From assembly GCA_022072125.1 (NCBI GenBank), contig JAJVIH010000020.1, positions 62,001 to 126,000 on the forward strand: a DNA stretch of 64,000 nt. Reading direction: 5' to 3'. The notes below the pieces were generated by a model. That model saw only the letters and a list, made by a program, of their open reading frames with translations. It ran no database searches and was not told where the DNA came from. The position numbers were made by a program, and so were the translations under genes. This document shows, piece after piece, positions 28,632 through 47,624 of this stretch (within the stretch, counting starts at the first letter, position 1; each line of letters starts with the position of its first letter). Source of the DNA: Myxococcota bacterium (lineage in GTDB: Bacteria > Myxococcota > JAJVIH01).

Positions 28632-29747
28632 TCACTTTTCCAGATTCATCAGCGCCTGGGAGATCATCAGCAGGCCGCGCATGTCGTCCACCCCTTCGGG
28701 CAGGCTGGGCAGGGCCAGCGTGGCGGCGTTTCCGCCCGCCTCCTTGCGCAGTTTCTCCACCAGCCCCTGGTGCAGACGGACTTCTTCCAGTTCACGTTCC
28801 GCCAGCGGCTGTAATTTGCGCCAGGCGGAAACCAGTTCCGGCGGCGCCCCCGGAGGCAGCAGATCGTCCGTGGGCATGCGCCGCTCGCCAACCACTGCCT
28901 GGCTGCGGTTGAGAATGAACCCGCGGAACGGCAGGTTCATTTCACGGGTCTTGGCGTGGAAAAACTCCGCCTCGGCGAGAGCCGCCTGGGCGGGAGAAGT
29001 CACCAGCAGGAATGCGCACTCCGGTTTCGACAGGAACTCGCGCATTTTGGTCACGTCCATGTTCAGCGACTGCATGATCTGGGAAAACATGCCCAGCGTG
29101 CCTTGCAATTCCGACGCCAGTTGATCGCCGAAAACCATGCCGAAAATGGAATTGATGAAACGCGAAGGCACGCCCCACCCGCTCTGCTCGCTGACGGCGA
29201 ACAACTTGAAAACACGGCCGTCAATGAAACCCGCCAGCTTCGCGGGGGCTTCCAGAAAGGCCAGGGCGTTCCGCGACGGCGGCGTATCGAGCACCACCAG
29301 GTCGTAGGAGTTGTCCTGAATGAAGTTGTACAGGGCTTCCATCGCCGTATATTCCTGCATGCCCGCGATCATGTTGCTGATCTGGCGATAGATGCGGTTC
29401 TCCATGAACTTGCGGGCATCCTCCTCGGAATTGGTCAGGCGGCGCACCGAGGCGTCGGAAACAATCTGCGGATCGAGCATCCAGGCGTCGAGCAGGCCGG
29501 GCGCGGCGATCCCGGCTTCCGCCAGGCGATCTTCCGGCAACGGGGCGGGCTGGGGGGTGTTGCGCGACACCCCCAGGGTCTCCGCCAGGCGGCGGGAGGG
29601 ATCAATCGTCACCACCAGCACGCGCCGCCCCAGGCGCGCCGCCGCGACCGCCAGGGCCGCCGAGGTGGTGGTCTTGCCCACGCCGCCCGCGCCGCAGCAC
29701 ACGATCACCCGCTGGTTGCGGATGAGGGATTCAATCAACCCGCTCAT
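28632..29747 (-). CDS. ArsA/GET3-like ATPase (canonical P-loop)
   Basis: 371 residues. The deviant Walker A loop is near the N-terminus (VIVCCGAGGVGKTTTSAALA); the switch I region is VVTIDPSRRLAETLGV and switch II is DLVVLDTPPSRNALAFL. ArsA-type ATPases move arsenite or, as Get3/TRC40, tail-anchored proteins. No arsenite pump or ArsR is nearby, so a targeting or envelope role is likelier. It overlaps the sister ATPase by 4 bp (ATGA); the two may form a heterodimer like the two halves of ArsA. Confidence 0.88.
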   Translation of the reverse strand: MSGLIESLIRNQRVIVCCGAGGVGKTTTSAALAVAAARLGRRVLVVTIDPSRRLAETLGVSRNTPQPAPLPEDRLAEAGIAAPGLLDAWMLDPQIVSDASVRRLTNSEEDARKFMENRIYRQISNMIAGMQEYTAMEALYNFIQDNSYDLVVLDTPPSRNALAFLEAPAKLAGFIDGRVFKLFAVSEQSGWGVPSRFINSIFGMVFGDQLASELQGTLGMFSQIMQSLNMDVTKMREFLSKPECAFLLVTSPAQAALAEAEFFHAKTREMNLPFRGFILNRSQAVVGERRMPTDDLLPPGAPPELVSAWRKLQPLAERELEEVRLHQGLVEKLRKEAGGNAATLALPSLPEGVDDMRGLLMISQALMNLEK

Positions 29748-30661
29748 GCGCTCTCCCGCGTCAGGTTACCCGCGATGGCGTTGAGCAGTTCCAGCCCATG
29801 AAACCGGAATTCGGGCGTGGTGTACAATGGCGCGGACAGGTTCGCCCGCAGGCGCTGGATGGATTTGCGGCTGGCGTCAATCTGCTTCAGGCCTCCCGCG
29901 CCATACAGGGGGTATTGCTGGATCATGGGGACCAGCGCTTCCCGCTCCCGGGGGGTGAAGGGATCAATGGGAAAGCGGTTGAGCACCACCGCCCCCACAT
30001 GCACGCGGGTTTCCTTGAGTCCCTCGATCAACTCCAGACATTCGGTCACGGGCAGAGTCTCCGGCAGGGTGACCACGCAGGCGCAGGATCGCGCCGGATC
30101 GTTCATATAACTCTGTCCCTCGCGCAGGTTGCGGGCCATGGGACCGCTGGTGATGAGTTTGAGCAATATCTCCGGCAGGCCGGTGAGCCCCAGGGTGTGC
30201 CCGGTGGCCGGCATGTCCACGAAGATCAACTCATGCTGCGGAGAGCCGTCCCTGCGGGTCTTCTTGATGAGTTTGAGCAGGTGCTGAAACACGCCCATCT
30301 CCGCGAAGGACGGTGCGGCGTCGAGGAAACGCCGGAGCGCGCGCGAGCGGATGGCCGCCTTGGCCAGCAGTTCCGAGGGCAGCACCGAAGCGAGGAAATC
30401 CTCGTGACCCGCACGCATGTAGAGGTAGCAGCCGTGGATACCCGGCGCGAGCGGCTCCGGTTCCTCCGTCCAGTTTTCCCGGCCAAACCAGCGCCCCACC
30501 GCCGAATACCCTTTTCCGGGTTCGCCGATTTCGGTGAGCAGCACGCGCTTGCCCGCCTTCGCGGCGGCGAGGGCGAGCGCTCCGGTGACGCTGCTGCGGC
30601 CCACGCCGCCCTTTCCGGTCACCAGCACAATGCGGCGATCAAACAGCGGGTTGCCGCTCAT
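29744..30661 (-). CDS. ArsA/GET3-like ATPase with Arg in place of the P-loop Lys
   Basis: 305 residues, same fold as its neighbour. The signature loop reads VLVTGKGGVGRSSVTGALAL: the first, signature Lys is kept but the phosphate-binding Lys of GK[ST] is Arg. Switch II is ELIFVDMPATGHTLGLTGLP, the characteristic ArsA DTAPTGHTLR-like motif. Reduced or regulatory ATPase activity is expected unless Arg substitutes. It overlaps both neighbours by 4 bp and is probably the second gene of the operon. Confidence 0.86.
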   Translation of the reverse strand: MSGNPLFDRRIVLVTGKGGVGRSSVTGALALAAAKAGKRVLLTEIGEPGKGYSAVGRWFGRENWTEEPEPLAPGIHGCYLYMRAGHEDFLASVLPSELLAKAAIRSRALRRFLDAAPSFAEMGVFQHLLKLIKKTRRDGSPQHELIFVDMPATGHTLGLTGLPEILLKLITSGPMARNLREGQSYMNDPARSCACVVTLPETLPVTECLELIEGLKETRVHVGAVVLNRFPIDPFTPREREALVPMIQQYPLYGAGGLKQIDASRKSIQRLRANLSAPLYTTPEFRFHGLELLNAIAGNLTRESA

Positions 30662-31359
30662 GGTTTTTCGTTTCGCTTCAGCCGGTTGATCAGGCCCAGA
30701 TCCTCTGAACCCAGAAAGTGAAAGGTAATGTACAGGTGGGTATTGAGATGCCAGCCGCCGCCTTCCACCGGACGGGCGAATTTCCCATCCTCGTAGTTGA
30801 TGAAATAACGGCCGAACAGGGGCTTGACCACATTGAACGCGGTCCCGAAGGACAGCCAGTGCAGCAGATACCAGTCGGTTCCCAGCCCAAGGGCGATGGC
30901 CGGGCCATCCATGCCGCGGATGCGCTCGCCCGCGTACTCGCCTGTCTTCATCAGCGAGTCATTGCGCGGCTGCCAACCGATGATGTGGTAACCCGCCCCC
31001 AGATAAACGTAAGGGTCGAGACAGGTATCCACTTTTGTAAAGGCCAGCGGATGCAGTTTGGCCACCCCGAGAATATGTCCCCCGCCCTGCCGTTCATTGC
31101 GGTCAAACAGCGAGGCTCCAAAACCGGTGAGTTGCGCCTCCAGCGAGGCGTAGTCGAAGAAGTTGAAACCCAGGCGGAATGCAGGCGAAAACTGGATGCT
31201 GGAACGATCCCCCGCCTGCAGCGCCGGGTCGGATGAGGTGTATCCACCGAAGCCAAACCCCAGGCCGGTGTATAATCCATGACGCGCCTGGGCGCTTTCC
31301 GGCAACGCCGCCAAGGCCAACAAGGCAATCAGGAAACCGGTCACACGTATGCGCCGCAT
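30658..31359 (-). CDS. small outer-membrane beta-barrel protein
   Basis: 233 residues from the ATG at 31359 with signal peptide MRRIRVTGFLIALLALAALPESAQA. The mature part alternates glycine/aromatic strands (GLYTGLGFGFGGY, PYVYLGAGYHIIG, IALGLGTDWYLLHWLSFG, NTHLYITFHFL), as in OmpA/OmpW-size barrels of 8 strands. It heads the ArsA operon (ATGA overlap), linking those ATPases to the envelope. Function unknown. A run of alternating GC lies about 50 bp upstream. Confidence 0.72.
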   Translation of the reverse strand: MRRIRVTGFLIALLALAALPESAQARHGLYTGLGFGFGGYTSSDPALQAGDRSSIQFSPAFRLGFNFFDYASLEAQLTGFGASLFDRNERQGGGHILGVAKLHPLAFTKVDTCLDPYVYLGAGYHIIGWQPRNDSLMKTGEYAGERIRGMDGPAIALGLGTDWYLLHWLSFGTAFNVVKPLFGRYFINYEDGKFARPVEGGGWHLNTHLYITFHFLGSEDLGLINRLKRNEKP

Positions 31360-31464
31360 GTCAGAACCCGTCCATCTGGCTGGAAACACAGGGCTTGCTT
31401 AACAGCATCCAGCGCGCGCGCGCAAGCACAAACCGCCGCCGCGGGGTCCGGGAGCGACAAAGTC

Positions 31465-32868
31465 TCAGGGGAGATCAATCCGGGCGTCGCATGAGCCGCT
31501 GCGGGGAGCGCAAACTTCCCAGCGGTAGGTGACTTTTTTCGGGTCCTGGCGGTTCACGCAGATGCGATAGCTGGAGGGCTCGTTCACAAACTGGACGTTC
31601 TTGCAGACGCTGCCGTCCGGGCAATCGAAATCATCGAAGCAGTTCCAGACCACGCCGCTGCAGTAAAACCCCGACGGGCATTCTCCGTCGTTCTTGCAGG
31701 AAAAGCCGCAGAACCCCCTCGCCGACCCTTTTTCGGTGATGCCCTGCAAACAGCCAATCTCCTCGCATTCAGAGGCGAAGTCGCAGGCCTTGCAGGTGCG
31801 CGCCGGGTTGGTGAAGCAGCGCCTGGTCCGCTGATCGCAATATTGCCCGAACGGGCAATCCGCCGCGCTTTCACAGATTCCGGTCTGACAACGCCCCTGT
31901 GCGCAGACCTGGCCCAATGGGCATCCCGAGGAATCGCCGCAGCCGGCCTTGCAGGTCTTCGACGGCGAATCGCAAATTTGTCCCATGGGGCAATGGATAT
32001 CCTTCAGGCATTGAACGGCTTTGATGCAGGAGCCGCCCACGGTGTCGCACATGGCCCCCGCCGGGCAATCCAGGTTGGAAAAACAGGGCTCGGCGGGCTG
32101 GCACAGCCGCTCGGCGTTGCAGCGCTCCCACGAGGCGCAGTCGGAGTCGGTGGAGCAAAGGCATTGCCGGGTCGCGCGATCACATTTCAGCTTGCCGGGA
32201 CACACATTGTCGTTGTCGCAGGCGCATTGCCGGCGGGCGTCATCCCAGACAAAACCTTCCGGGCAACAGGAAGGACCGGCGCACATGCAGGCGTCCTGAT
32301 CCGGATTGTAGCGGTGCAGCGGAGGGCAACAGGCGTCGTCGCCGCAAACACAGCTCTGCGACCCCTGCACCACGGCGGTTTGCCGCAGGTGGTAACCATC
32401 CGGACAACAGGAGTCCGCCACGCACAGGCATTTCCTTTCGTTTTCGTTCCAGCGGAAACCCTCCGGGCAGCAGGAAGCGCCCGTACACAGGCAGCGCTGT
32501 TCCTTCTCATCCCAAACGTGATCCCGCGGACAACATTCGCTGGCCCTGCAAACACAGGCTTCGGCGTCCTTGTCCCACGTCAGGTTGCGCGGACAACATT
32601 CATCCCCGCGGCAGACACAGGCGCCGTCCCGGTATTCATATCCAGTTCCGCAACAGGTTTCGCCCGAACAGGCGCAACCCCCCTCCTTGCATTCAAAACC
32701 TCGCGGACACACCTGGCTGGACTGGCAAACGCAACGGCCTTCCTGCTCCGCGAAACCCGGCGGACACAGGTCCACAATGCCCGTGCGGGCGCACCCCGCC
32801 GCCAGAAGCGCGGCGATCCACCATACCGCGCGGAACCAGCGCCGCAATCCGGAGGTCCACGGCGTCAC
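31465..32868 (-). CDS. cysteine-rich repeat lipoprotein
   Basis: 467 residues with a signal ending in lipobox LAAGC (MTPWTSGLRRWFRAVWWIAALLAAGC). The mature protein has two repeat types. About 35-240 holds seven or eight units like CVCRGDECCPRNLTWD or CLCTGASCCPEGFRWN. About 240-400 holds units like DCPAGAMCDTVGGSC, resembling Dickkopf/EGF-type disulfide modules. The Cys count is very high and must need oxidative folding, so it is exported and probably surface-exposed. Its GTG start overlaps the vWA lipoprotein stop by 4 bp, suggesting a functional pair. Confidence 0.82.
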   Translation of the reverse strand: MTPWTSGLRRWFRAVWWIAALLAAGCARTGIVDLCPPGFAEQEGRCVCQSSQVCPRGFECKEGGCACSGETCCGTGYEYRDGACVCRGDECCPRNLTWDKDAEACVCRASECCPRDHVWDEKEQRCLCTGASCCPEGFRWNENERKCLCVADSCCPDGYHLRQTAVVQGSQSCVCGDDACCPPLHRYNPDQDACMCAGPSCCPEGFVWDDARRQCACDNDNVCPGKLKCDRATRQCLCSTDSDCASWERCNAERLCQPAEPCFSNLDCPAGAMCDTVGGSCIKAVQCLKDIHCPMGQICDSPSKTCKAGCGDSSGCPLGQVCAQGRCQTGICESAADCPFGQYCDQRTRRCFTNPARTCKACDFASECEEIGCLQGITEKGSARGFCGFSCKNDGECPSGFYCSGVVWNCFDDFDCPDGSVCKNVQFVNEPSSYRICVNRQDPKKVTYRWEVCAPRSGSCDARIDLP

Positions 32869-33956
32869 CGCTGCACCTCGTAGGAGATGCGGATGCGCGA
32901 CTTCACCGGAGGGGTATAGTCGCCGTCGAAACGGATCAGCCGGTTCACCGCATCGAAGGCATAGCCTTTCAACGGGTCGAGGCTGATATTCACACCATCC
33001 ACGGTCACCGCCAGCGTATTGGGAATGGGCGGCGCGCGCAGCGGAAACACCCGGCGGGGAGGACGCACCCGGGAGGCCAGCCGCGTCAGCAGCCCGTTGT
33101 AATCCGGGTTGCAGATGGATTCGACCAGTCCGCCCGTGCTTTCGGCGGCTTCGATATAACGCAGCCCGGGCTCCGCCTCGGCGCCATACAGACCTTCATC
33201 GCCGGGAGGGGTGCATCCCTCCGGGGGCAGCCCGGCAATCACATTGATGGATATCCGGTTTTCGTTCCCCGCTCCCATCAACAACTTGAACTGGCGGATG
33301 TAGTAGCCGGTTTTCCCGCGGGACTGATCATCCTCGTCGCTGATGATGATGACAAACAGGTCGGCTTCCGGACGCAGAAACCCCTTGTTTTCATTGTCCG
33401 TGCGCGGAGGAGTAAGCGCCAGCAGCAGGGAGGCCAGACCTTCCTCCTGCACCACGGCGGTATTGGCGAGGCGCAACGATTCCCGGAAGCTTTTCGCCGG
33501 ATCGCTGCTCTGAGCGGTCAGAAATGGCGGCGTTCCCATCAGCCTGCCGCCTCGCGCGCCGGAATTGGCGGTGCTGATCACGCCCAGGTGAAAATCAATA
33601 CGCGAATCATAGAGCGACCCGAGGAAGCGGTCGAAGGCCGCCACCAGGCGCTCCCGTTCGTTGGCCATGCTGCCCGAGGTGTCAATCACCCACAGGATAT
33701 CCACGCTGCCGGCCGACTGGATGAACTCGTCAATCTGCCGGAGGTTGTTCAGACCCGCGGGCGTGACCGCGGGCGGCTGTACGGGCGGAACCCTCACCGC
33801 CGCCGTATCCGCATCGGCCTGCTTGACCTCCGGCGGCTGGTAATCCGGCATTTCAATGGGGTATCCGACATGCTCGCGGCTGATCACGCCGCCATCGCAC
33901 GCCGCGCACAGGGCGCAGGCGATGATCAGAACCGGCAGGAGCGAAGGGCGTCGCAT
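32865..33956 (-). CDS. vWA-domain lipoprotein
   Basis: 363 residues from the ATG at 33956 (MRRPSLLPVLIIACALCAAC; lipobox LCAAC). A Pro-rich linker leads to a von Willebrand A domain with an intact MIDAS (ILWVIDTSGSMANERE), so it can bind a metal ion and a protein ligand. The C-terminal about 80 residues form a beta-rich module (IPNTLAVTVDGVNISLDP, KSRIRISYEVQR). An in-frame ATG at 34007 is possible but lies before a weaker signal. It is coupled to the Cys-rich lipoprotein and lies 86 bp after nadD. Confidence 0.85.
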   Translation of the reverse strand: MRRPSLLPVLIIACALCAACDGGVISREHVGYPIEMPDYQPPEVKQADADTAAVRVPPVQPPAVTPAGLNNLRQIDEFIQSAGSVDILWVIDTSGSMANERERLVAAFDRFLGSLYDSRIDFHLGVISTANSGARGGRLMGTPPFLTAQSSDPAKSFRESLRLANTAVVQEEGLASLLLALTPPRTDNENKGFLRPEADLFVIIISDEDDQSRGKTGYYIRQFKLLMGAGNENRISINVIAGLPPEGCTPPGDEGLYGAEAEPGLRYIEAAESTGGLVESICNPDYNGLLTRLASRVRPPRRVFPLRAPPIPNTLAVTVDGVNISLDPLKGYAFDAVNRLIRFDGDYTPPVKSRIRISYEVQR

Positions 33957-34042
33957 CGGAGGCGGATTGTATCCTTCCGTGGCGAAGGGCTCAACCAGTA
34001 TTTTCAAGATTCAACCGGATGATGGATATCCGGCCGGCAGCC

Positions 34043-34705: not shown

Positions 34706-37700
34706 TCAGGGTGAGCGATCGCCGGTGGCCGCGAAGTTGCCCATGCGGTACAGGCCGTCGTCGGTGGCGATCCACACCTCGCGGCGGCCGGTGGCCGGAT
34801 CATGCCACACCGCCACGTCGTTGATTTTGGTCACGCTGGAGCCAATGCCGAAAATGCTGGCGCGGTAGTTGAAGAAGCCCGCGTTCTCGTTCTCCCAGAC
34901 GATTTGATCGTATGGGGCCTTGAAGCGTCCCAGGCTGTTGTCGGCCGTGAACCAGACATCCTTCTTCGTGGAATCAACCGGATTGTTGTTGGGCGTGGTG
35001 GATGGATCCACGTACATCGCCGTCAACATCGGGTGGCGCGGGCCGGTGGTCAGACCGTCCGTTCCGCTGGAAGAATAGATGGTTCTCTTCGCGGAACTGC
35101 TGGCGTCGCTCGAGGAAGTGAACGTCGTGAAGTCATTGATCTTCACCACGCCTTGGTTCTGGGCGGTCAACCAGAGGTTGTTGCTGGCGCCGCGGCCCAC
35201 CTCGATCACGTTGTCGTTTCCACCAAAGAAATCGAACGCCACGGTCGAGGTGTCGCAGTTGGTGCGGTTGTTGTAGTTGGGCACGCGGCGCAGACCGTTG
35301 GCGTCGTTGCCGAGAGCCGCCCACATCACGCCGCCCGCAAACTCAAACCCGTTGAGGGTGGGATCGTCTGCGGTTCCGTCGGTTCCCTCCAGGCATTTGA
35401 AGGATGGCGAGGTGATCGCCAGGCTGGTCAGGTTGGCCTGGGTGTAGCCGTCGCGCGTGCCCACGTACAGGTTGGAGCCATCCGAGCCGAAGGCGGTGAT
35501 GTCGTCGGCGACACTGCTCAGGGCCGCTTCGACGCCATTCTCGCCCTGCACCGCCGCATTCGACGGATTCAGGCTGAACAGCAGCGCCGCCGGTCCCGTG
35601 GGTGCGTCCTCGCCGAAATACACCAGGCCGCTGGTGGCGAACACCTTGCCCAGACCGCCATTGGCCAGCGGCGGATTGGTGGACGTGGTGATCAGGTTGT
35701 CGTTGGTGTTCCAGTGGTACCAGTACATGTCCTTGCAGGTGTTGTCGGCGCCGCTGCAGCCGTCCTTGACCATGAACACATCGGCGGCGTTGGTTCCGCT
35801 GGTCGAGGGAACCACATCCACCGACCGGATATTCCCCGGTGCGCTCGCGATCTTCGAGAACCCGTTGATGGTGACGGTGATGTTCTGGGCAGGGCTGGTC
35901 AGAGGCGGACTGGTGGTCTTGGCCTGCAGGCGGACGGTCAGGTTTTCGGTGGCGCCGCAGTCTTTCGTCTGCTGGCAGGCGACGAAGATCGCCTCTCCGG
36001 TAGCGCCGGTCACCTGCAGGGTGGTTCCGCGGCTGGCGTAGGTCTTGGGATCAATGAATTCCTGCGCCTTGCCCGAAGTGACCGTCCATTCCAGGTTGGG
36101 AACGGTGGCGGTGCAGCCGGGGCCGTAGGAGTCCTTGCCAATCACCTTCACCGTATCGCCGATCATCACCGTCTGGCTGGAGGGCGAAGCCACCGCCACC
36201 AGGGCGTTGTTCGGTCCGACAAAGAAGTTGCCCGTGACCACGCTGGCCGTGCAGGAGTCATTGCCCTGGCCATGGAATTTGACCTGCTGGGCGCCCGTCG
36301 GCTGACCAGAGGCGACCCGCACGGTGAAGTTGGCGTTGCCGCTGGAGTTGACCGTGACCTGACGGCGCGCGCCGCCGCCCGTGAACAGGCCGGAGGTGGT
36401 GCAACCATCCACTTGATAGCCGCTGTTGGGGGCCAGCGTACCGTCAACCGGGTTGTCGAATTGGTCGCGCGCCTGCACGGTGACGCTCAGGCTTTCGGTG
36501 TTGTCATTCAGCAGGCATTCGACGCCGGAGCGGGTGCTGGGCGCGTCCAGCGTGGTGATCTGGAATTTGCTGGTGTCGGCGGCGGCCGGGCGCACTTCGA
36601 TGACATTGCTGTCCACCGTGCTGTTGGGAATCGAAGGCGTGATGGTCGCGCGCAGGTACATGCGGCCCTTCGGCGAGGTGTTCTGCACCACCTGACGCTC
36701 CGAGATGGTGAAGTCCACGAAGGAGCCGCCGGCGGTGCCGCCGCTGGTGGTTCCATCAAGCACGCCCGTGCCGGTCATCGCCGCATCGGTGCCGGCGTTG
36801 AAGGCCTGAATGCTGATATTCGAACTGGCCATGTTCTTCGGATTGCCGAATTGATCCTGCACCTCGATGCGAACCGGGTTGCCGCCCATCTTCAGATTGG
36901 CGGAAGCCACCGCGCTGGCGATGACGGGCGTATCCACCGTGGTGGTCGCGCCGCGCTTGAAGACAATCTTGTTGGCGGCGGCGGCGTTGACCACGATATT
37001 GGTTTTACTGCCCGTGATGGAGCCGGTCACCGAATCCGTCGCGGACAACGTGCAGTTGGGCGGTGAAGCCACCTTGGGCGTGAACCTTCCGGAGAAGGAC
37101 TTGATGCCCAGATCGCCAGACGCGATGCTGCCGCTGCCTGGCGTGTCTCCGGTCAGTTTGCAGGTCCAGTCGAAATTGACCGTGCCGGTATAACCAGTGG
37201 CGCGGTTGCCATTCTGATCCAGGGCCTCGACGACAATGTCGTAGGAGGTTCCCGCCGTCAGCGCGCCCGCCTGGGTGTCCACCGACAGGCTGACCGCGGC
37301 GCCCGGAGTGATGTTGATGGAGTGATCGCTGGTGGAAGTCAGCGTCGGGCTGCCGGTGTTTTCCTCGCCGCGGATCTGGATGGTCTCCACCTTCGTGTGC
37401 TGGAAGGCGTTGCCGGTCTTGGTGAAGGTCGCCCGGCCGTTGACCGTATTCGCGCTCTGGGAGGTGAAGGTGAAATTGCCCGCCGTGCCGCTGCGCAATA
37501 CGATTTTGATCGAACGTCCATTGTCGTTGGACACCCAGCGATCGCTGGAGTCGCGCACTTCCACCACGAAGTCATTCCACTTGTCGGTGGAAGGAACCGA
37601 GGTGGGCGGGAGGGTCGAGAACGCCAGCTTGGCGGCGGCGCCGAATCCGACATTCAGGTTGGTGTTGGCCTTCACCGCCGGAGCGTTTTCAGAAGCCACG

Positions 37701-40700
37701 TTGACCTGCACTGTCTCCTGCACCGTGCCGGCGGTCACCGTGTAGCTGAAATCGCCATTGGTCAGCGGAGCCTGACGGTTGGCGAGCCCGGGGTTGGAAT
37801 CCGCCGGCGCGGTGATCCGTGTTCCGTTGGCCTGGCTCAACTCATCCGTGCCATTGGCGTTGAGGCCAACGGTGACATTCGACAAATAATCGGCGGAGTT
37901 GGTGACCTTGTTGTTGTACAGGTCGAAGGCCGAACCCGAAATCGTCGAAGTCGAGGTGTTGTCCGCTGGGATGGACTGCAGGTTCGCCTGAATGGTGTAC
38001 GAAGACGGCTCCGCGGGCTTGAGAGTGATGTTGGAGGTTGAACTGATCGCCGTGGAGGTGATCGTTCCGGTCAGCACATAGTCATGGGTGGCGTCCGTCA
38101 GGTTTTTGCGTTGCGAAACCCTGGCGAAGGTCGCCTTGCCGCCCACCGACACATCGCCATTGACCGTCGCGGTCGCCACGGAAGAAGCAGAGGAGACGCC
38201 GGCCAGGAAGAATTTGTTGTCGTCCCCGGCGGAAGTCAGGGTGACGCTGTCGCCATGAATCAGGCGGGGCGCGCCCTGGGCGTCGGTCGGGGTGACCACC
38301 ACATCCACTTCCTCGCCCGCTTTCCAGGTGGTTTTCGCTGGCGTCACCGTGACACCGGCGACCGCGCCGGCTTCCACCGTCACCGTAGCGCTGTTTCCAG
38401 AGGAAGAGGAAGCGGGCTGGGCCTGCACGGCGGTCACGCTGATGCGTCCCGTGCCCTGGTTCTGGCCATTGGCGCGCACATTGAAGCTGAGCATGCCCCC
38501 GTTCACCGCCACCTGATGGCCCGCGGTTCCCGCGTCGGCGTCGGCTTCCACCACGTCCATATTGTTCAATGGACCAAAGGTATCCGTGATGAATCCGATG
38601 GTGAACAAGGTTCCGTTGGCGAGGGTGTTGCCGAAGCGGTCCTTCAGCGTATCGGTGGTGACGGAAGTGGTGCGGGCGGCGGTGTTGCCCGTCCAGCCGC
38701 CGGAATTGGGCCGCAGGGTGGCCGTGCCGCGGGTCACCGTGATGGTCTGGTTGCCGGGCTTGGAGGGCGTTACCGTGATGGTCTGGGTCTTGTTGATGGA
38801 ACCCGAAACCGCGCGCAGGGTGAAGTTCTCCGCGATGATGTAGTAGCGGCCCGCGAAAGTGACGGAACCCGCGGGTTGCGCTGAAGTTCCGCTGAAGGGC
38901 GTTCCCGCGGTTCCCGGCTCCGGTCCGGTGCGCAGGGTGCTGGTGCCGCCGGTGGCGTCAAGGTCAACCGGGTCGGCTTCCAGTTCGCGCGGGGCGTCAT
39001 ACTGATCGCGGGCGACCACTTTGACATCAATATTTTCTCCCGCTTCCCAGGTGGTTTTGTTGGGCGTGAACTGGAAGGCCAGGTTGTTCAGGCCGTAGGC
39101 GCCCACCTTCACCGCGCTGGCCGCCTGGACACGGGTTCCGTCATTCAACGGATTGCCGCTTCCATCCACGGACTCGGTATTGATGTACTGGCAGCCCTGG
39201 GTGGCCCCACCCTGCAACTTGATGGTGATCTTGCCATCCACATCGGTGGTTTTGGTGGTGACCTTGTCGTTTTCCGGATCGTCATCGGAATGGATGCGGG
39301 AATTGGAGGAGCGCAGCGTGGTGAAGTTGTCGCATACGGTATGACCGTTCACGATCTTGGTGTAACTCGCCGACAGCGGATTATCCGCCAGGGTCACCAG
39401 CACGCGGGTGCCGGTGGCGGCGATATTCTCGAAGCGGTCGCGCAGCGCCGTGGAGGTGAAGGTCTTGATATGCTCATTGGCGGTGGTGGCCGCGCCAAAA
39501 TCGTTGTGGATGATCATGGCAGGAGCGCCGCCGCCGCCGGGGTTGTCCGTGGTGTTGAACTTCACATCGTGAGTATCGGACGGCGCCGCCGGATCCACGG
39601 TTATCAGGGCGGTCTGAGAGTTCACCGCTCCCACCGTGGAGCGCAGGTTGAATGTACCGCGCTTCCGGTAGTTGATATTGTTGAAGGTTGCGTCGCCGGT
39701 TCCCAGGGTGGGATTTCCCGTGATGGTGGATGGCGTCGAGCCGGTCCCCTGCCACAATCCCTGCTGGAAGGTGGTGGTCTTGACCAGGGTGGGGTTGGCG
39801 GCGTCCAAGGTAATGGTGTCGGTGTCCATCAACCGCTTGAGACCATACTGATCACGGGGGGTCACGGTGATGGTGAAAAGCTGGCCCGCCGTCCAGGTGG
39901 TGGTGTTGGGGTTGAGACCGATATCGAAGCTGACAATCGGACCTCCCGATACCTTGAAATTCTGGCCCAGCCTGCTGGACAGATTGGGATCCTTCCATTC
40001 GAGTTGGCGCTCGCAATCGTTGTCGCGGGTGGAATCGTTGACCGCCAAATCCGGCAGTTCCACCGCGCTCACGAAGAAGCGGCCAAAGCCCTGGGTCGCG
40101 CCGGATTTCAGCACGAACGAAACCTGGCTGTTGGCGTCGGTCTTGAGTTGGACGCCGCTGATCGTGCTATCCGCATCCGTCACTCCTTCAAAATCGGAGC
40201 CGGTCGCCGGGAAGGGCTGGCGGACCGCATCCAGCGTGTCGGTGGAGGAATAACTGACCGTCACCAGCACGTTGGCGCCAACCAGGTTGCCCTTGATGTC
40301 CTTCAATTGCGATGAAGTGAGGGTAAAACGTTTTTCCGCATTGGTGGGACCCGCCACATCCGGATGGGCGCGCACATCCACGCCCGCCACGCTGGTGCGC
40401 AGCGGTTGGGTATTGGCCGTGCAGTTGGATGGCGTGCTGAAGGTTCCCGCGGCGGGCGGCCCGGGGTTCACGGTGGTGATGGCGATGGTGGTCGCGGGCA
40501 GGCTCCCGCCCGAGATCGAAAATTCCAGCGGCTTGGTGCGTTCCAGATAACGGAAGCCGGTCCAGGTGGCCTGTCCGGAAGAGACGGTTTTGGTGGACGG
40601 CAGGGTCAGTTCCGGCGGCCCTGGCAGGAAATCGCCGTTGGCGCCCTTGCCCGCCGAGAAGGACAATTGGAGTTGGGTGCTGTTGTTGGTGGTGACGATA

Positions 40701-43700
40701 TTGCCAAAGGAATCCTTCAATTGCGCCGTGACATTGAACCGCTGACCCACCCGGATGGTCTGGTTGGCGACCAGGACGACGCTGGCGGCGGCCCCCGGCA
40801 GCACGGTGATCACCTTGGAACCCGTGCCCACCCCTCCCGGACCAGTGACATTGATGGTCAGGCTGCCCGCCTGCTGGCCCACGTCAATTTCAAAACTGAT
40901 CGATCCGTTCGCCGGGGTGACCTGATGGCCCCCCGCCGCGGCGTCCGCGTCCGAGGAGACAAAGGTTCCCGCTGTCAACGTCGCGGTGAGATTGGGCTTG
41001 GCGTTCACCGGGTTGCCCTGCGCATCCTTGATGTCGGTGCAGGTGATGGTGACGCGCGTGTTGACCGTCGGCGTATCGCTGGAGGAGGTGCAGTTGAAGG
41101 TTCCGGCCGGGTTGCCCGGGATGAGGGTGATGCCCACCGATCCCGTGGCGGTGGAGCCCTCGCGGCGGCCGCGCAGGGTGACGGTCGCGTTGCCAGGGGT
41201 CTTGGAGGATTTGTAGGTCACGCAGATTTTCTGCGCGCTGGCCTTGACCTCCACCACGCCAGTGGTGGCGGGATCGTCATCCGGCGATGACAGGGTTCCG
41301 CCGCCCGTCAGGGAGGCCTCGAATACCTCTCCGTTGGGAACCAGGTTGCCCTGGGCGTCCTTGAGATTTTCGGAACAGACCTGCGAGGTGCTGACCTCGT
41401 CGGCGACAATTTCGCTTGGCGTCGCGGTGACCGTGAGCGTACCAGCCGGCGGACCGGAGATGAGATCAAAATTGAGCGATCCGGTCGCCGTCCCCGGGGC
41501 CGCGGCGGCAGCCGTGAAGTTGGCTGTTCCGGTTTGGTTGGGCGCCCGCACTTCCACCGTAACCACGCCGTTGTTGACGGCGACCTGAACGCCGGGTTCG
41601 GGTCCCACGTCCACGGCGTTGATATTCAGGCTTCCCGTGGAGGTCAGGGTGATCAGGGTTCCATCGCGCACAAGCTGGTTGGCGGAGTCGCGCACCGGCC
41701 CGATGTCCACGGTGGTGGAATCCACGCCATTGGCTACCAGGGTTGTCTTCCCCGCTTTCAGCGGAATCGAACCCACGGCGGGCCCAAGGGTGATCACATC
41801 GCGGCAGACTTCCTCGGAACTGTTGGCGCCGTCGTAAACCGTCAGGCAGAAGCTGAGTTGTCCGCCTTCATTGGGAGCGATGAACTGGGCGTGCGCCGAA
41901 TTGACGCCCTGCAGGTTCACGTTGCCGGTGCGCACGCGCCAGACATAGGTGATCTGCCCGCCCTGCGGCTGGAAGCTGCCAGATCCATCCAGTTCCACCA
42001 CGTCGCCAAAGCTGGGGGTGGCGCCGGGGCGCGAACGGTTGTTGACCGCGTTGATAATGGCCACCGGCGGCGTGGCGGGAAACGGCGATCCGACTTCGAC
42101 GGAGACCAGCGCGGGGGCGCTGTTGGCCTTGCCATCGTTCACCACCAGCGAAAACACCATGCGGTCTGAACTGCCCGGGGCCGTGAATCGCGGCGTGGCC
42201 GAACGCGGATCCGTCAGGGGGGCGAAAATGCCCTGGACCTGCACCCAGCGGTAATTGATGTTGTCGCCATCCGGGTCGCGGGAACCCGTGCCGTTCAGGG
42301 TCACCACCTGGTTGACGCCAATCTTGATGGGATCTCCCGCGTTGGCCACTGGCGGCCGGTTGGTGACCTCGTTGGCGACGATGATCTTCACCTTGGATTC
42401 GGAGGAAGACAGGATGCCATCGTTGACGATCAGGCCGAACTCCATGGTTTGCGGTTTGTCCGGAGCGACGAAAATCGGGTTGACGGTGCGCGGTCCGCTG
42501 ATCTTGACGACATCACCGCTGATCTGACGCCAGTTGTAGAAAAGGGTGTCCCCATCATTGTCAAAAGAACCCGCGCCATAGAGGGTGACCTGGGCGCCCG
42601 GCGCCACTGTCTGCTGAACCCCCGAGTTGGCCTCGGGCGGAAGATTGCCGCGCTTGACGCGCACGGAAACGAAATCGGGCGAACTGTTGCTCTTTCCATC
42701 GCTGACGATGAGCGCGAACTCATAAAACCCATCCGTGTTGAACGATGGCGTCGTAATGGAGACGGATTCGCGGTTCTCCAGAACAATCACTTCGGGCCCT
42801 GCAACCTGGCTCCAAGTGTAGGTCAGCCTGTCCCGATCGGGATCAAAGCTCCGCGAGCCGCTCAGGGTGACGCTCTGCCCGACGTTGATGACGCGGTCTT
42901 CGCCGGCGCTGGCTACCGGAGAACGGTTGGTTTCATCGGGCCGGGCGTTGACGGTCACCGTGGCGGGGTTGCTGGAATCCAGGCCATCGGAAACGGTCAC
43001 GGCGAACTGGTATTCGCCGGAAGAGGCCGCCCTGAACCAGGGGAAGGCGCTGTTCTGGTTGTTCAGGGACACCGTGGTTCCACTCACCTGCTTCCACGTG
43101 TGGAAGATGCGATCATTTTCCGGGTCGGTGGACGCGGAAGAATTCATGATCACGATGGTTCCCGTACGCACGGACATGGGAGTCATCACCTTGGCCAGGG
43201 GGGGGCGATTTTCCTTCTTCACAATGGTGATGCGAACAATGTCTTCCTTGCTCGACACTTCACCGTCAAACACCGTCAGGGAGAAATCCACCGAAGTGTC
43301 GCGGGGCACGTCGGGCGCGGTGAACGTGGGATTGGCCGCCGTGTTGGAGTTGAGCCGGATGCTTTCCGGTCCCGACATTTTCACCCAGCGGTAGGTCAAC
43401 GGCTTTCCTTCCGGGTCGAACGAAGCGGCGCCATCCAACTGAACAAGCTGATTGGGCTTCACGCGCTGATCGGGACCGGCGTTGGCGACCGGCGGCAGGT
43501 TCTTGAATTCGCGGACCACAAAAATGGTCACCCGGTCCGGCTTGGAAGGAATGCCATCCGAATTGGTGACAACCAGATCGAAATTCAGCGTCACTTCACG
43601 CTCGGGAGCGGTGAACCGCGCCACCGCCTCGGCCCGTCCGGTGATGGTCACACCCACCGGATCCGAAGGATCCTGACGCCAGTCATAACGCAATTGCAGG

Positions 43701-44542
43701 TTATTGGGATCACTGGACTGGGAGCCGTCGAGGATCACCACCTGCGAGAACCCCACTGTCTGGTCCGGACCCGCATTGGCGACGCCAGGGACCCTCGCCC
43801 GCTGAACCAGGAACTGGTAGGTTTCGGAGGCCCGCCCGCCGCGTCCATCCTCGACCACCAATTCAATTTCCATCCGGGTTTCCGTGGCGGGAGCGGTGAA
43901 CACCAGGATGGGCGCCCGTGAATCCTCAATTGTCGCCTTGGGACCGCCATCCTTCTGAACCCACTGATACGTCAGTTGGTCGCCGTCGGGGTCCGTGGCC
44001 TGGGGATCCAGTTCAACCCGTTGCTGGAAATTGACCACCCGGGAGCTGTTCTTGGTTGCAATGACAGGATTGTTGTTGGGCGGCCCAACATCGGGAGTCA
44101 CATCCGGAGTATCGGCGTCCGTCCCGGTAGCGGCGTCGGCGTCCACGCCTCCGTCGCTGGGAGGCGGACGTTCGGCGTCCAGGACCCGGATTTCAACAAT
44201 ATCCGGATTGGAGTCGCTGACGCCGTTGTTCACCACCAGGGCGACCAGGTGAACGCCCGGCTGGGAAGGAATAAAACTGGTCGAGGCTTTGGATTCCGGA
44301 TTGGGCAGGGCGGAATTCTGGGGCTGGCGGATAAAGGACCATGTATAGGTCAACTGGCGGTTCTTCGAGTCGCTGCTGCCGCTGCCATCCAGGGTGACAG
44401 GATCGCCTACTCTGCCAATTTTGTTCTCACCCGCAATCGCGATGGGGAGTTCTTCCGCATCTATGGTAGGCGGAACACAACCAGCCCCCCACATGGAAAG
44501 AACAAGAATACCCGTTACGGCAAGAGAAAGACGCTTGCTCAT
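34706..44542 (-). CDS. giant multi-domain surface lipoprotein (PKD and bacterial Ig-like repeats)
   Basis: 3,278 residues from the ATG at 44542, with signal MSKRLSLAVTGILVLSMWGAGC (lipobox GAGC). Residues about 30-915 hold nine PKD-like modules, each starting like PPVANAGPDQ and containing YxW; a Asp/Ala/Thr/Pro linker (VDADAATGTDADTPDVTPDV) splits the first two. About 916-2890 is a long array of Big_1/invasin-like Ig modules with spacers such as DQYG/DQFGNP. The last about 390 residues (from GNIRSVDVVPS) look like a beta-propeller ending VWIATDDGLYRMGN. It is presumably displayed at the surface as an adhesin or recognition rod. A hairpin terminator precedes the ATG and another follows the stop. 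Confidence 0.88.
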   Translation of the reverse strand: MSKRLSLAVTGILVLSMWGAGCVPPTIDAEELPIAIAGENKIGRVGDPVTLDGSGSSDSKNRQLTYTWSFIRQPQNSALPNPESKASTSFIPSQPGVHLVALVVNNGVSDSNPDIVEIRVLDAERPPPSDGGVDADAATGTDADTPDVTPDVGPPNNNPVIATKNSSRVVNFQQRVELDPQATDPDGDQLTYQWVQKDGGPKATIEDSRAPILVFTAPATETRMEIELVVEDGRGGRASETYQFLVQRARVPGVANAGPDQTVGFSQVVILDGSQSSDPNNLQLRYDWRQDPSDPVGVTITGRAEAVARFTAPEREVTLNFDLVVTNSDGIPSKPDRVTIFVVREFKNLPPVANAGPDQRVKPNQLVQLDGAASFDPEGKPLTYRWVKMSGPESIRLNSNTAANPTFTAPDVPRDTSVDFSLTVFDGEVSSKEDIVRITIVKKENRPPLAKVMTPMSVRTGTIVIMNSSASTDPENDRIFHTWKQVSGTTVSLNNQNSAFPWFRAASSGEYQFAVTVSDGLDSSNPATVTVNARPDETNRSPVASAGEDRVINVGQSVTLSGSRSFDPDRDRLTYTWSQVAGPEVIVLENRESVSITTPSFNTDGFYEFALIVSDGKSNSSPDFVSVRVKRGNLPPEANSGVQQTVAPGAQVTLYGAGSFDNDGDTLFYNWRQISGDVVKISGPRTVNPIFVAPDKPQTMEFGLIVNDGILSSSESKVKIIVANEVTNRPPVANAGDPIKIGVNQVVTLNGTGSRDPDGDNINYRWVQVQGIFAPLTDPRSATPRFTAPGSSDRMVFSLVVNDGKANSAPALVSVEVGSPFPATPPVAIINAVNNRSRPGATPSFGDVVELDGSGSFQPQGGQITYVWRVRTGNVNLQGVNSAHAQFIAPNEGGQLSFCLTVYDGANSSEEVCRDVITLGPAVGSIPLKAGKTTLVANGVDSTTVDIGPVRDSANQLVRDGTLITLTSTGSLNINAVDVGPEPGVQVAVNNGVVTVEVRAPNQTGTANFTAAAAAPGTATGSLNFDLISGPPAGTLTVTATPSEIVADEVSTSQVCSENLKDAQGNLVPNGEVFEASLTGGGTLSSPDDDPATTGVVEVKASAQKICVTYKSSKTPGNATVTLRGRREGSTATGSVGITLIPGNPAGTFNCTSSSDTPTVNTRVTITCTDIKDAQGNPVNAKPNLTATLTAGTFVSSDADAAAGGHQVTPANGSISFEIDVGQQAGSLTINVTGPGGVGTGSKVITVLPGAAASVVLVANQTIRVGQRFNVTAQLKDSFGNIVTTNNSTQLQLSFSAGKGANGDFLPGPPELTLPSTKTVSSGQATWTGFRYLERTKPLEFSISGGSLPATTIAITTVNPGPPAAGTFSTPSNCTANTQPLRTSVAGVDVRAHPDVAGPTNAEKRFTLTSSQLKDIKGNLVGANVLVTVSYSSTDTLDAVRQPFPATGSDFEGVTDADSTISGVQLKTDANSQVSFVLKSGATQGFGRFFVSAVELPDLAVNDSTRDNDCERQLEWKDPNLSSRLGQNFKVSGGPIVSFDIGLNPNTTTWTAGQLFTITVTPRDQYGLKRLMDTDTITLDAANPTLVKTTTFQQGLWQGTGSTPSTITGNPTLGTGDATFNNINYRKRGTFNLRSTVGAVNSQTALITVDPAAPSDTHDVKFNTTDNPGGGGAPAMIIHNDFGAATTANEHIKTFTSTALRDRFENIAATGTRVLVTLADNPLSASYTKIVNGHTVCDNFTTLRSSNSRIHSDDDPENDKVTTKTTDVDGKITIKLQGGATQGCQYINTESVDGSGNPLNDGTRVQAASAVKVGAYGLNNLAFQFTPNKTTWEAGENIDVKVVARDQYDAPRELEADPVDLDATGGTSTLRTGPEPGTAGTPFSGTSAQPAGSVTFAGRYYIIAENFTLRAVSGSINKTQTITVTPSKPGNQTITVTRGTATLRPNSGGWTGNTAARTTSVTTDTLKDRFGNTLANGTLFTIGFITDTFGPLNNMDVVEADADAGTAGHQVAVNGGMLSFNVRANGQNQGTGRISVTAVQAQPASSSSGNSATVTVEAGAVAGVTVTPAKTTWKAGEEVDVVVTPTDAQGAPRLIHGDSVTLTSAGDDNKFFLAGVSSASSVATATVNGDVSVGGKATFARVSQRKNLTDATHDYVLTGTITSTAISSTSNITLKPAEPSSYTIQANLQSIPADNTSTSTISGSAFDLYNNKVTNSADYLSNVTVGLNANGTDELSQANGTRITAPADSNPGLANRQAPLTNGDFSYTVTAGTVQETVQVNVASENAPAVKANTNLNVGFGAAAKLAFSTLPPTSVPSTDKWNDFVVEVRDSSDRWVSNDNGRSIKIVLRSGTAGNFTFTSQSANTVNGRATFTKTGNAFQHTKVETIQIRGEENTGSPTLTSTSDHSINITPGAAVSLSVDTQAGALTAGTSYDIVVEALDQNGNRATGYTGTVNFDWTCKLTGDTPGSGSIASGDLGIKSFSGRFTPKVASPPNCTLSATDSVTGSITGSKTNIVVNAAAANKIVFKRGATTTVDTPVIASAVASANLKMGGNPVRIEVQDQFGNPKNMASSNISIQAFNAGTDAAMTGTGVLDGTTSGGTAGGSFVDFTISERQVVQNTSPKGRMYLRATITPSIPNSTVDSNVIEVRPAAADTSKFQITTLDAPSTRSGVECLLNDNTESLSVTVQARDQFDNPVDGTLAPNSGYQVDGCTTSGLFTGGGARRQVTVNSSGNANFTVRVASGQPTGAQQVKFHGQGNDSCTASVVTGNFFVGPNNALVAVASPSSQTVMIGDTVKVIGKDSYGPGCTATVPNLEWTVTSGKAQEFIDPKTYASRGTTLQVTGATGEAIFVACQQTKDCGATENLTVRLQAKTTSPPLTSPAQNITVTINGFSKIASAPGNIRSVDVVPSTSGTNAADVFMVKDGCSGADNTCKDMYWYHWNTNDNLITTSTNPPLANGGLGKVFATSGLVYFGEDAPTGPAALLFSLNPSNAAVQGENGVEAALSSVADDITAFGSDGSNLYVGTRDGYTQANLTSLAITSPSFKCLEGTDGTADDPTLNGFEFAGGVMWAALGNDANGLRRVPNYNNRTNCDTSTVAFDFFGGNDNVIEVGRGASNNLWLTAQNQGVVKINDFTTFTSSSDASSSAKRTIYSSSGTDGLTTGPRHPMLTAMYVDPSTTPNNNPVDSTKKDVWFTADNSLGRFKAPYDQIVWENENAGFFNYRASIFGIGSSVTKINDVAVWHDPATGRREVWIATDDGLYRMGNFAATGDRSP

Positions 44543-44556
44543 TGGATCACCCGGTG

Positions 44557-44594
44557 AAAAACCTCCCTTCCCTCCATTAGGAGGAAAGAGAGGT
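44557..44594 (-). promoter_or_regulatory. terminator-like hairpin in the leader of the giant gene (candidate attenuator)
   Basis: Leftward, ACCTCTCTTTCCTCC (44594-44580) pairs with GGAGGGAAGGGAGGT (44575-44561) over 15 bp with two G-U pairs, and T-rich sequence follows (44561-44557). This is an intrinsic terminator ending 14 nt before the ATG. A -10-like TACAAT (44612-44617) would start transcription just ahead of it; no good -35 is seen. A GGAGG also lies within the stem. The rest of the 44543-44832 divergent gap shows no other feature. Confidence 0.65.
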
Positions 44595-44832
44595 CCCGCT
44601 TCTGCTTCCAAATTGTACACCCAATGCAATCCTACCGGTGGCTCCATGGCCGGTCAAATTAAGGCGGCCAGATTGGGCGCGTATCCGGATGCTTTATCCC
44701 GGGATTCCATGTTTCGTCCGCCCCTTTCCCTGGCCCCGCCGGGGAATACGGATGCATGACCCGTCCTTGACACCCTTCATGCAGGGGCGATACTTGACCG
44801 GATACTGGCCCAGACTGACGCATGGGGCGCTG

Positions 44833-46020
44833 ATGATGCTCGTACATTCAAAATTCTCCTGCCTCGCCATTGCAATCGCAGCCCTGATTCCGGTCCAGGC
44901 CGGAGCCGCCGAACCACAGGTGGGGAAAGTGGCCGCCATTCGCGGTCCGGCGACCATCACCCGCGCCGACGGGGTGACCGTGGACGCCAAACCCGCCATG
45001 CCGGTGTACCGCAAGGACCGGATTTCCACTGGCAAGGCAGGGCGCATCAAGATCATGATGAACGACGACACCATCCTAAATTTGGCGCCATTCAGCATCA
45101 TGGCGGTGTCAGCTCATGATCACGACAGCCAGAATCGCAAACGGCAGTCGTCCATGGAACTGGTCCGGGGCCGCCTGTCCACGCTGGTCACCAAGGCGTT
45201 CACCTCGGATTCCGAGTTCAAGATTCGCACCCCCACCGCCGTCGCCGGCGTTCGCGGCACCTGGTTCGTGGTGACGGTTTCCGCCACGCCCAATGGATAT
45301 GATGAACAGATGGCCGCCTTGCCGCCCATCGAAGGCGACATGAATTTCACCGAACTGCTGACCATAGAAGGAACGGTGGAAGTGCAGAGCACCACCGTCC
45401 CCAACGGGCCGGTGGTGCAGGTCCCGGCGGGAACCTTCAGCAATATCAACAAGGGGGCCAATCCCACGCCGCCCGAAAAGGCCGCCAAGGACAAGGTCGA
45501 GGGTGTTTTGCAAAAAGCGAAGATGGGACGCAGCCAGGGTGAATCCCCCACCGATGATTTTGGTCCCGGCAACCTGCAGGACAGCGAATTCACCCAGGCC
45601 GAACAGAACGCCCAGTTACCCGACAGTGAAACCGGCACTGGCCGCTCGGCCATGTCCAGCGGCGGTTCCTCCGGACAAGGCGGAAGCTCGGGTCAGGGTG
45701 GTGGTTCTAGCGGCGGCGAAGGTGGCTCCACCGGGGGCGGGGCGACTGGCGGTTCCACTGGCGATGGCCTGGCTTCCGGCGGCGGACCTGGCGGCGGCGA
45801 AGGAGGAGGAGGGCTGGGCGGCGATACCGGCGGGGGGCTTGCCAATCAGGTGGACAATATCAACAACCCTTCTCCGGACTCGCTGGCGGGCAACGTCAAC
45901 AACGGCCCCCCCGCCAACCAGGCGGCCACCGACGTGGGCGGAAGGACGGAGACCTCCACTGGCGCGGCCGTGACCGTGGATATCGTATTTCCCCAACCCC
46001 CCGCTCCTCCCGCGCGCTGA
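44833..46020 (+). CDS. exported FecR-domain protein with Gly/Ser-rich tail
   Basis: About 395 residues from ATG at 44833 or 44836 (GGGGC upstream), with signal peptide ending VQAGAAEP. A FecR-type beta domain follows (VGKVAAIRGPATITRADG, ISTGKAGRIKIMMNDDTILNLAP, FKIRTPTAVAGVRGTWFVV). The last 130 residues are Gly/Ser-rich and disordered. FecR domains of this periplasmic type occur beside adhesins and OM export genes and do not imply iron signalling here. It is divergent from the giant lipoprotein gene and 8 bp ahead of the TPR-barrel gene, so an operon of two. Confidence 0.82.
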   Translation: MMLVHSKFSCLAIAIAALIPVQAGAAEPQVGKVAAIRGPATITRADGVTVDAKPAMPVYRKDRISTGKAGRIKIMMNDDTILNLAPFSIMAVSAHDHDSQNRKRQSSMELVRGRLSTLVTKAFTSDSEFKIRTPTAVAGVRGTWFVVTVSATPNGYDEQMAALPPIEGDMNFTELLTIEGTVEVQSTTVPNGPVVQVPAGTFSNINKGANPTPPEKAAKDKVEGVLQKAKMGRSQGESPTDDFGPGNLQDSEFTQAEQNAQLPDSETGTGRSAMSSGGSSGQGGSSGQGGGSSGGEGGSTGGGATGGSTGDGLASGGGPGGGEGGGGLGGDTGGGLANQVDNINNPSPDSLAGNVNNGPPANQAATDVGGRTETSTGAAVTVDIVFPQPPAPPAR

Positions 46021-46028
46021 AAGGCCGG

Positions 46029-47624
46029 ATGACCATGTCCAAATTTGGCTTGTTTGTATTGGCTGCCGTGCTTTTCGTGTGCGCGGGCCATGAATCCGCC
46101 CTCGCGTCCTCTCCGGGCGAGGACGCGGAGTTCCACACCACCCGCGGTTTCCTGCGCCGCCAGGAAGGCGACCATGCCGGCGCCGTCGAAGACCTGACCT
46201 TCGCCCTGAAGAACGACCCGGCCAATCACGAGGTCAAGGAAGCGCTGGGACTGAGCAAAATCCAGATCAAACAATACCGGGAAGGAGCGGACCTGCTCCA
46301 TCAGGCGCTCGCGGCCAACGCGGAGCGCAAGAACCTGCTGTTTCCCATCGGATATGCTCAATTTCAGACAAAGGATTACGCCGCCGCAGAGGCCACGCTG
46401 ACCAAGAGCATCGAGGCGGAACCAGACAATGCGCAGGCCCACCTGTATCGCGGCGCGGCGCTCTATCATTTGAAGAAAGATGCGGACGCCCTCGCCGCCC
46501 TCGACAGGGCCGGCTCCATGAGCCCAGGGCTTGAAGGAACCGCCAGCTACTACAAGGGCCTGATCCTCGCACGCATGGGCAAGAAAGACGAGGCCCGTGA
46601 CAACCTGCGCCGGACCGCTGAATCCATGCCCGGAACACCGGCCGCGGCGTCGGCCAACCGCGTATTGTCCGGATTGGGTGTGGAGCAGAAGGCGCCGCCG
46701 GAGCAAAAAGGCGAAAAGGCCTTGCCGCTGGCCGCCGCCGCGGTGGTATCCTACCAATACGACAGCAACGTCATCCTGCAATCCAACGACGAATCCCTGG
46801 CGCCCCTGTATCAGAACATCGCCAACAAGGGCGGCAGCAAGACCATCGTCAATCTGTTGCTGGACGCCACGCCCATCCGCACCGCGCGCGCCACTGTTGG
46901 AGCGGTGCTCAGCGGGTACATGAACTTCCATTTCGACACGGATCTGGACAACTTCAATTTCACAACCTTTTCGGCGGGCCCTTACGGAACCTGGAAAATT
47001 TCTGACAAGTTCAACCTTCGCCTGCCCTACATGTTCAGCTATTCGCTGATTGGAACCGGATTCAACGGGTTCGGATTCAATCACGCCGTCAATCCATCCC
47101 TGACCTGGACGGCCGCCTCCTGGACTGTTGGGCGGCTGCAGATCGGCAACCGTTACGATGGCTTTTTCGCTCCGCCAGCCACCCGCATTCCGCCGCCCCA
47201 GCGCCGCGACGCCTACAACCTGTCCCCCGGCTGGACCCAGTACTTCGGATTCAAGCAGGGCCGCTACATCTTGTCGGTGGGTTATGTATTCGAATTCAAC
47301 GCCGCCGATGGAGATGACTGGGATTATCTGGGCCACCAGGGACAGGTGGGCGGAATCATCAAAATCATCGAGCCGTTGCGTCTGCGGGCCAACGCCGGCG
47401 TCATCTACCGCAACTTCGGCAATCCGCAGAGCGGACTGGTGGGCGGCGCGAACGAAACCCGCAACGACACCATCATCCAGGCTGGCGCTTCACTGGCCTG
47501 GCATGCGTGGAACGACAATCTGATCGTGACAGCGGGCTACGCCTTCAACAAGGGCGACAGCAGCCTGGCGCTCTTCAAATTCGATCGCCATCTGATTACG
47601 GCGGGCGTCACCCTGGCGTATTGA
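46029..47624 (+). CDS. periplasmic TPR plus outer-membrane beta-barrel protein (Slam-like architecture)
   Basis: 531 residues from the ATG at 46029 (ATG at 46035 also possible). Signal peptide (FGLFVLAAVLFVCAGHESALA), then about five TPRs to about residue 220 (EGDHAGAVEDLTFALKNDPANHEVKEALGL style), then a beta-barrel from about 234 (SYQYDSNVILQSND) to the end, which closes with FDRHLITAGVTLAY. TPR followed by barrel and this length are the layout of Slam/DUF560 proteins that translocate surface lipoproteins. The adjacent giant lipoprotein is the natural client. Domain identity with Slam is inferred, not proven. Confidence 0.75.
   Translation: MTMSKFGLFVLAAVLFVCAGHESALASSPGEDAEFHTTRGFLRRQEGDHAGAVEDLTFALKNDPANHEVKEALGLSKIQIKQYREGADLLHQALAANAERKNLLFPIGYAQFQTKDYAAAEATLTKSIEAEPDNAQAHLYRGAALYHLKKDADALAALDRAGSMSPGLEGTASYYKGLILARMGKKDEARDNLRRTAESMPGTPAAASANRVLSGLGVEQKAPPEQKGEKALPLAAAAVVSYQYDSNVILQSNDESLAPLYQNIANKGGSKTIVNLLLDATPIRTARATVGAVLSGYMNFHFDTDLDNFNFTTFSAGPYGTWKISDKFNLRLPYMFSYSLIGTGFNGFGFNHAVNPSLTWTAASWTVGRLQIGNRYDGFFAPPATRIPPPQRRDAYNLSPGWTQYFGFKQGRYILSVGYVFEFNAADGDDWDYLGHQGQVGGIIKIIEPLRLRANAGVIYRNFGNPQSGLVGGANETRNDTIIQAGASLAWHAWNDNLIVTAGYAFNKGDSSLALFKFDRHLITAGVTLAY

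Follow-up and report, generated by a model that had tools for sequence, protein, structure and literature searches.

In the 64,000-nucleotide window of the Myxococcota contig JAJVIH010000020.1 analysed here, open reading frame calls place a giant lipoprotein gene on the minus strand (34706..44542) head to head with a plus-strand pair encoding a FecR-domain protein (44833..46020) and a TPR-barrel outer-membrane protein (46029..47624), which bears out all three genes, and their head-to-head arrangement, as proposed in an earlier note on this DNA. The divergent starts are separated by a 290-bp gap that holds one sigma70-like promoter site per direction, at 44629..44657 (minus strand) toward the giant gene and at 44767..44794 (plus strand) toward the pair; these two sites, against 0.1 expected, are consensus matches only. 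The TPR-barrel gene begins 8 bp past the FecR stop codon. These reading frames are not chance products: members of the barrel and FecR families turn up again in related genomes, and genome G013 encodes a relative that resembles the giant from end to end.

The reading frame of the giant spans 34706-44647 (minus strand, 3,313 codons), and a signal peptide and lipobox (MSKRLSLAVTGILVLSMWGAGC) begin at 44542, giving a protein of 3,278 aa with the lipobox cysteine at residue 22. Nine K319L-like PKD domains (Pfam, E 9e-101), about a dozen Ig-like repeats (residues ~920-2,900) and a C-terminal head of ~430 aa (34709..35995, minus strand) make up the rest of the chain. The head showed weak matches to Gmad1, Vgb_lyase and Reg_prop (E 0.06-0.2) and regularly spaced WIATDDGL/YVGT-type motifs, and on these grounds is probably a beta-propeller; an AlphaFold model of it made without an alignment was unusable. 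The G013 relative (L088, 3355-12795) is 3,128 aa long and similar from end to end at 23-31% identity. It is divergent from a gene for a Ser/Thr kinase with PEGA-like repeats on its 5' side, where no FecR–barrel pair is visible, and its contig ends just past its own stop codon.

The second gene of the plus-strand pair encodes a 531-aa protein with a predicted periplasmic TPR solenoid at residues 32-215 (46122..46673) and a predicted outer-membrane barrel at residues 234-531 (46728..47621). The repeats match TPR_2 (Pfam, E 2e-12), and AlphaFold run without relatives gave a confident TPR solenoid over residues 101-210 (block pLDDT 78-96) and failed on the barrel part. We assigned 14 amphipathic strands to the family consensus by eye; an automatic scan, a cruder method, counted 17 segments. 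Mean loop length alternates between 11.5 and 3.2 residues, each odd loop's mean exceeding each even loop's; because the odd loops are the longer ones, both ends of the predicted barrel are placed in the periplasm. The best profiles for the family consensus were the weak, generic barrels OMP_b-brl, DUF2490, DUF481 and BBP2_2, and a sequence search of the PDB returned generic TPRs or chance barrels only.

A barrel-only profile, with E below 1e-15 counted as strong, recovered 19 loci in 12 genomes and five families from a genome collection in which all relatives of the window genome belong to its own phylum. A search for named relatives gave only a TPR match in a Thermoplasmata contig, and a plasmid search gave no match. 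The FecR gene adjoins the strong barrel, or lies one lipoprotein gene away, at all 19 loci, and a same-strand predicted lipoprotein of ~220 to 2,050 aa stands beside the FecR–barrel pair at 16 of the 18 that are resolvable, a set that leaves out G013:C414, cut by its contig end. These 16 comprise 7/7 loci in family f4 and 6/6 in f7 (two by eye in each), together with two G013 loci and a single G005 locus. Both exceptions lie in the window genome: the window locus, with its divergent giant, and a paralogous FecR and 747-aa TPR-barrel pair (G000:C19; L031, 7474-10741) with no lipoprotein nearby. The lipoprotein calls relied on a lipobox pattern and in part on inspection by eye, without SignalP, and this pattern marks 13% of background genes; an automated neighbour test within two genes was weak (12/17, P about 0.02), and the loci amount to about eight independent units, most coming from two families (seven f4, six f7). 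The trees of the FecR and barrel families were poorly resolved, with support of 72/93 for the placement of the window barrel. The recurrent barrel–FecR–lipoprotein module is well supported. A limited literature search found no prior description of a FecR–TPR-barrel module or of the FecR tail described below, and these two are the new content of this work.

The earlier note had staked its reading in part on giant lipoproteins being found as neighbours in other genomes, and this is what we observed, within the wider pattern of lipoprotein neighbours: a 2,050-aa protein of the IPT/TIG type (G013:C379), a 1,079-aa protein of the beta-helix type (G005) and, two genes from the barrel, a 1,807-aa protein (G013:C2). 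The last (L032, 11789-17212, minus strand), which lies upstream of its TPR-barrel gene, combines a propeller of the teneurin NHL-like kind with Ig-like domains and also shows weak metallo-beta-lactamase-like similarity (E 0.007). The heads of the window giant and the 2,050-aa lipoprotein had no sequence link, and a comparison of small and giant lipoproteins for a common N-terminal domain gave no significant link save a weak similarity between f7 and f4.

The FecR-domain protein, 395 aa from the ATG at 44833, has a signal peptide, a FecR domain (PF04773, E 1e-14), a Gly/Ser-rich linker and a terminal strand. FecR domains occur in 143 of 193 genomes of the phylum. As read from the sequence, the window protein does not have the layout of a FecR anti-sigma factor: a cleavable-type signal peptide leads directly to the FecR domain, with no cytoplasmic anti-sigma part or inner-membrane helix before it. 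The terminal strand, VTVDIVF in the window (45970..45990, plus strand), was scored in the family as at least four alternating hydrophobic residues at the end of the protein. Such an amphipathic beta-strand ends the FecR partner at 15 of 18 strong loci versus 0 of 20 barrel-free FecR controls, with a P value of 1e-6 that is optimistic because the rule was set after viewing the alignment; elsewhere in the partner FecR proteins, 12 of 395 stretches show the same pattern. This signature suggests that the terminal strand may pair with the barrel, the TPRs or a client. Alternatively, the FecR protein could use this tail as a signal for its own export.

Several further genes follow the giant on its strand. 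One of them encodes a MIDAS-type VWA lipoprotein (32865..34007, minus strand) that matches the NF052240 MIDAS adhesin (E 5e-15) and CglD (E 3e-7); it belongs to the same-strand run downstream of the giant and is at most a possible associate of the module. A second VWA protein of the MIDAS kind is encoded elsewhere in the genome (L083, G000:C5). The MIDAS gene overlaps by 4 bases with a gene for a Cys-rich lipoprotein (31465..32868, minus strand) that has Cys-rich repeats of the myxobacterial type and weakly resembles the exchange receptor TraA. Beyond this lies a small outer-membrane barrel gene (30658..31389, minus strand), of which 31 of the phylum's 193 genomes each have one copy. Its relative in G013 adjoins a FecR–lipoprotein–barrel operon and has, by eye, an extra ankyrin-like C-terminus. 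Overlapping the small barrel gene is a further minus-strand gene (29744-30661) with the P-loop TGKGGVGRSS, by eye an ATPase of the ArsA/anion-transporter type.

The G013 operon just mentioned, G013:C379, runs in the order FecR, 2,050-aa lipoprotein, barrel, and is probably the orthologue of the window locus, because, over the full length, the window barrel matches its barrel best and its FecR gene is flanked by the G013 copy of the single-copy small barrel gene. This probable correspondence bears on whether the giant is the client of the adjacent barrel. In favour are its position, the divergent promoter-like pair and the very large lipoprotein enclosed in G013:C379, in which no homology to the giant was detected; against it is that the giant's own G013 relative has the kinase, and not a FecR–barrel pair, on its 5' side. 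We regard the giant as client as plausible but unproven, and hold it with some doubt.

The back-to-back locus and the recurrent lipoprotein neighbour suggest an undescribed aid for lipoproteins reaching or staying on the surface. Our best explanation, tentative and leaning slightly toward doubt, is a three-part envelope module that would act in a Slam/T11SS-like way without sequence kinship, with the giant probably its lipoprotein partner in the window. The gene content, the module's recurrence, the FecR tail signature and, as read from sequence, the barrel topology are observations; that the parts touch, that translocation takes place and that the giant is a client are inferences in the mechanism that follows. 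The window FecR and TPR-barrel genes are probably one copy of a module in which a 14-strand TPR-barrel is accompanied by a periplasmic FecR-domain protein, whose linker is flexible and whose C-terminus is a beta-strand, and in most cases by a lipoprotein. Within the periplasm the lipoprotein would be held by the TPRs together with the FecR protein; the terminal strand of the latter would pair with barrel or client, and the barrel would pass the lipoprotein to the surface or anchor it there. Compared with Slam, the FecR protein would add an adaptor in the periplasm. The part of the lipoprotein would in the window probably fall to the divergently transcribed giant, in which a long stalk of PKD and Ig domains bears a distal head and which is plausibly an adhesin. 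Points against this explanation are the missing SlipAM homology set out below, the absence of a recognised translocation signal and the paralogue G000:C19 without a lipoprotein. The bolder claim, that TPR 14-strand barrel, FecR adaptor and lipoproteins of 220 to over 3,000 aa, the giant included, form an undescribed display system that is not a T11SS by sequence, we consider rather doubtful.

The module may be real and yet serve only the small lipoprotein of each locus, which in the window genome would have been lost or would be encoded elsewhere, leaving the giant as a mere divergent neighbour with its own export route. The giant's G013 relative, unpaired with FecR and barrel on its visible side, fits this account, as do the lipoprotein-free paralogue and the fact that the giant begins directly with PKD domains and lacks the post-lipobox pattern of the small lipoproteins. 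Weighing on the other side, a search of the window genome made without a positive control found no small lipoprotein of the f4 type, and the lipoprotein held by the probable orthologous operon in G013 is itself 2,050 aa long, so we judge this account unlikely. A different substrate altogether is conceivable: the TPR-barrel would be a channel or exporter for a non-protein compound, with the FecR protein and lipoprotein as assembly or gating subunits. The same TPR-barrel layout is found in the polysaccharide exporters PgaA and BcsC. A DUF560 cluster also includes PgaA homologues (PMC8406197), and the barrel profiles nearest to our family are porin-like. We consider such an exporter improbable, since the flanking genes inspected in the module loci, annotated in part, showed no evident polysaccharide-synthase operon, the identified ones including coaD, an aminotransferase and gyrB/dnaN/dnaA, and since lipoprotein partners with lengths between 220 and 2,050 aa, mostly unrelated in sequence, fit clients better than subunits.

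The earlier note had likened the second protein of the pair to Slam, and here its layout and its ancestry part ways. The layout probably stands, in that periplasmic TPRs followed by 14 strands, as read by eye, agree with the published Slam arrangement; kinship in sequence does not, since SlipAM was not found. SlipAM/DUF560 (PF04575) gave nothing over cut-off in the window protein, in 10 family members or in the consensus, and its best scores, E 0.042 in one of the ten relatives and E 0.05 in one more distant member, were surpassed by BBP2_2 and generic barrel profiles. Across 193 genomes of the phylum SlipAM had no match, though control genomes were silent too, so that absence is not proven. 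TPR_Slam matched nine of ten family members, generic TPR models doing better, and reached only E 0.24 in the window protein. Cargo tells the same way: neither the window giant nor the large lipoproteins beside other barrels gave a Pfam match to TbpBBD or lipoprotein_C, and no TbpB-type C-terminal barrel was seen in the lipoproteins checked. The apparently shared TPR and 14-strand layout, the TPR_Slam matches and the borderline SlipAM scores in single members would speak for a genuine T11SS/Slam homologue that has diverged strongly; we consider this very improbable given the silent consensus and genomes and the lack of TbpB-type cargo. As judged from these profiles, membership of the Slam family by sequence fails; that the module works like Slam is moderately probable.

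Routes by which lipoproteins pass across the outer membrane are known from only a few proteobacterial systems. Our searches detected no Slam in this phylum, yet its genomes appear rich in predicted lipoproteins, and the recurrent barrel–FecR–lipoprotein module is a testable candidate for lipoprotein display. The FecR terminal strand, in our comparison confined to proteins encoded beside the barrel, hints at an interface that mutation could probe, and a lipoprotein of 3,278 aa would be an extreme client if the assignment is true.

Among known systems, the FecR protein resembles the Leptospira proteins Lsa33 (annotated as a surface adhesin) and LipL45 (annotated as a lipoprotein) in carrying a FecR domain in an exported protein that is not an anti-sigma factor (NCBIfam, E 2e-14 and 3e-11). 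It differs from them in lacking a lipobox and in having a Gly-rich linker and terminal strand, and its scores are far below the family cut-offs. The MIDAS lipoprotein in the giant's same-strand run recalls the predatory-type surface lipoproteins represented by Bdellovibrio MIDAS adhesins (PMC11003981) and myxobacterial CglB and CglD, whereas the giant itself has no VWA domain. With PgaA and BcsC the barrel protein shares a TPR solenoid fused to an outer-membrane barrel, but it is shorter, has 14 strands by our own reading and has no synthase genes seen nearby. In the T11SS, Slam is described as having a predicted barrel of 14 strands together with two TPRs (PMC7857515), and cargo of known structure has a C-terminal eight-strand barrel (PMC8406197). 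Our family shares with Slam a signal peptide, periplasmic TPRs and a gene that adjoins secreted lipoproteins, and its predicted barrel, by our reading, also has 14 strands; it lacks the SlipAM match and the TbpBBD/lipoprotein_C cargo, and a limited literature search for DUF560 together with FecR found none. What sets it apart from Slam is a constant FecR partner, more TPRs and very large lipoproteins. The marine DUF560 cluster 3 has DUF1194/vWA-like proteins as neighbours (PMC12282271), a likeness echoed by the MIDAS lipoprotein near the window locus.
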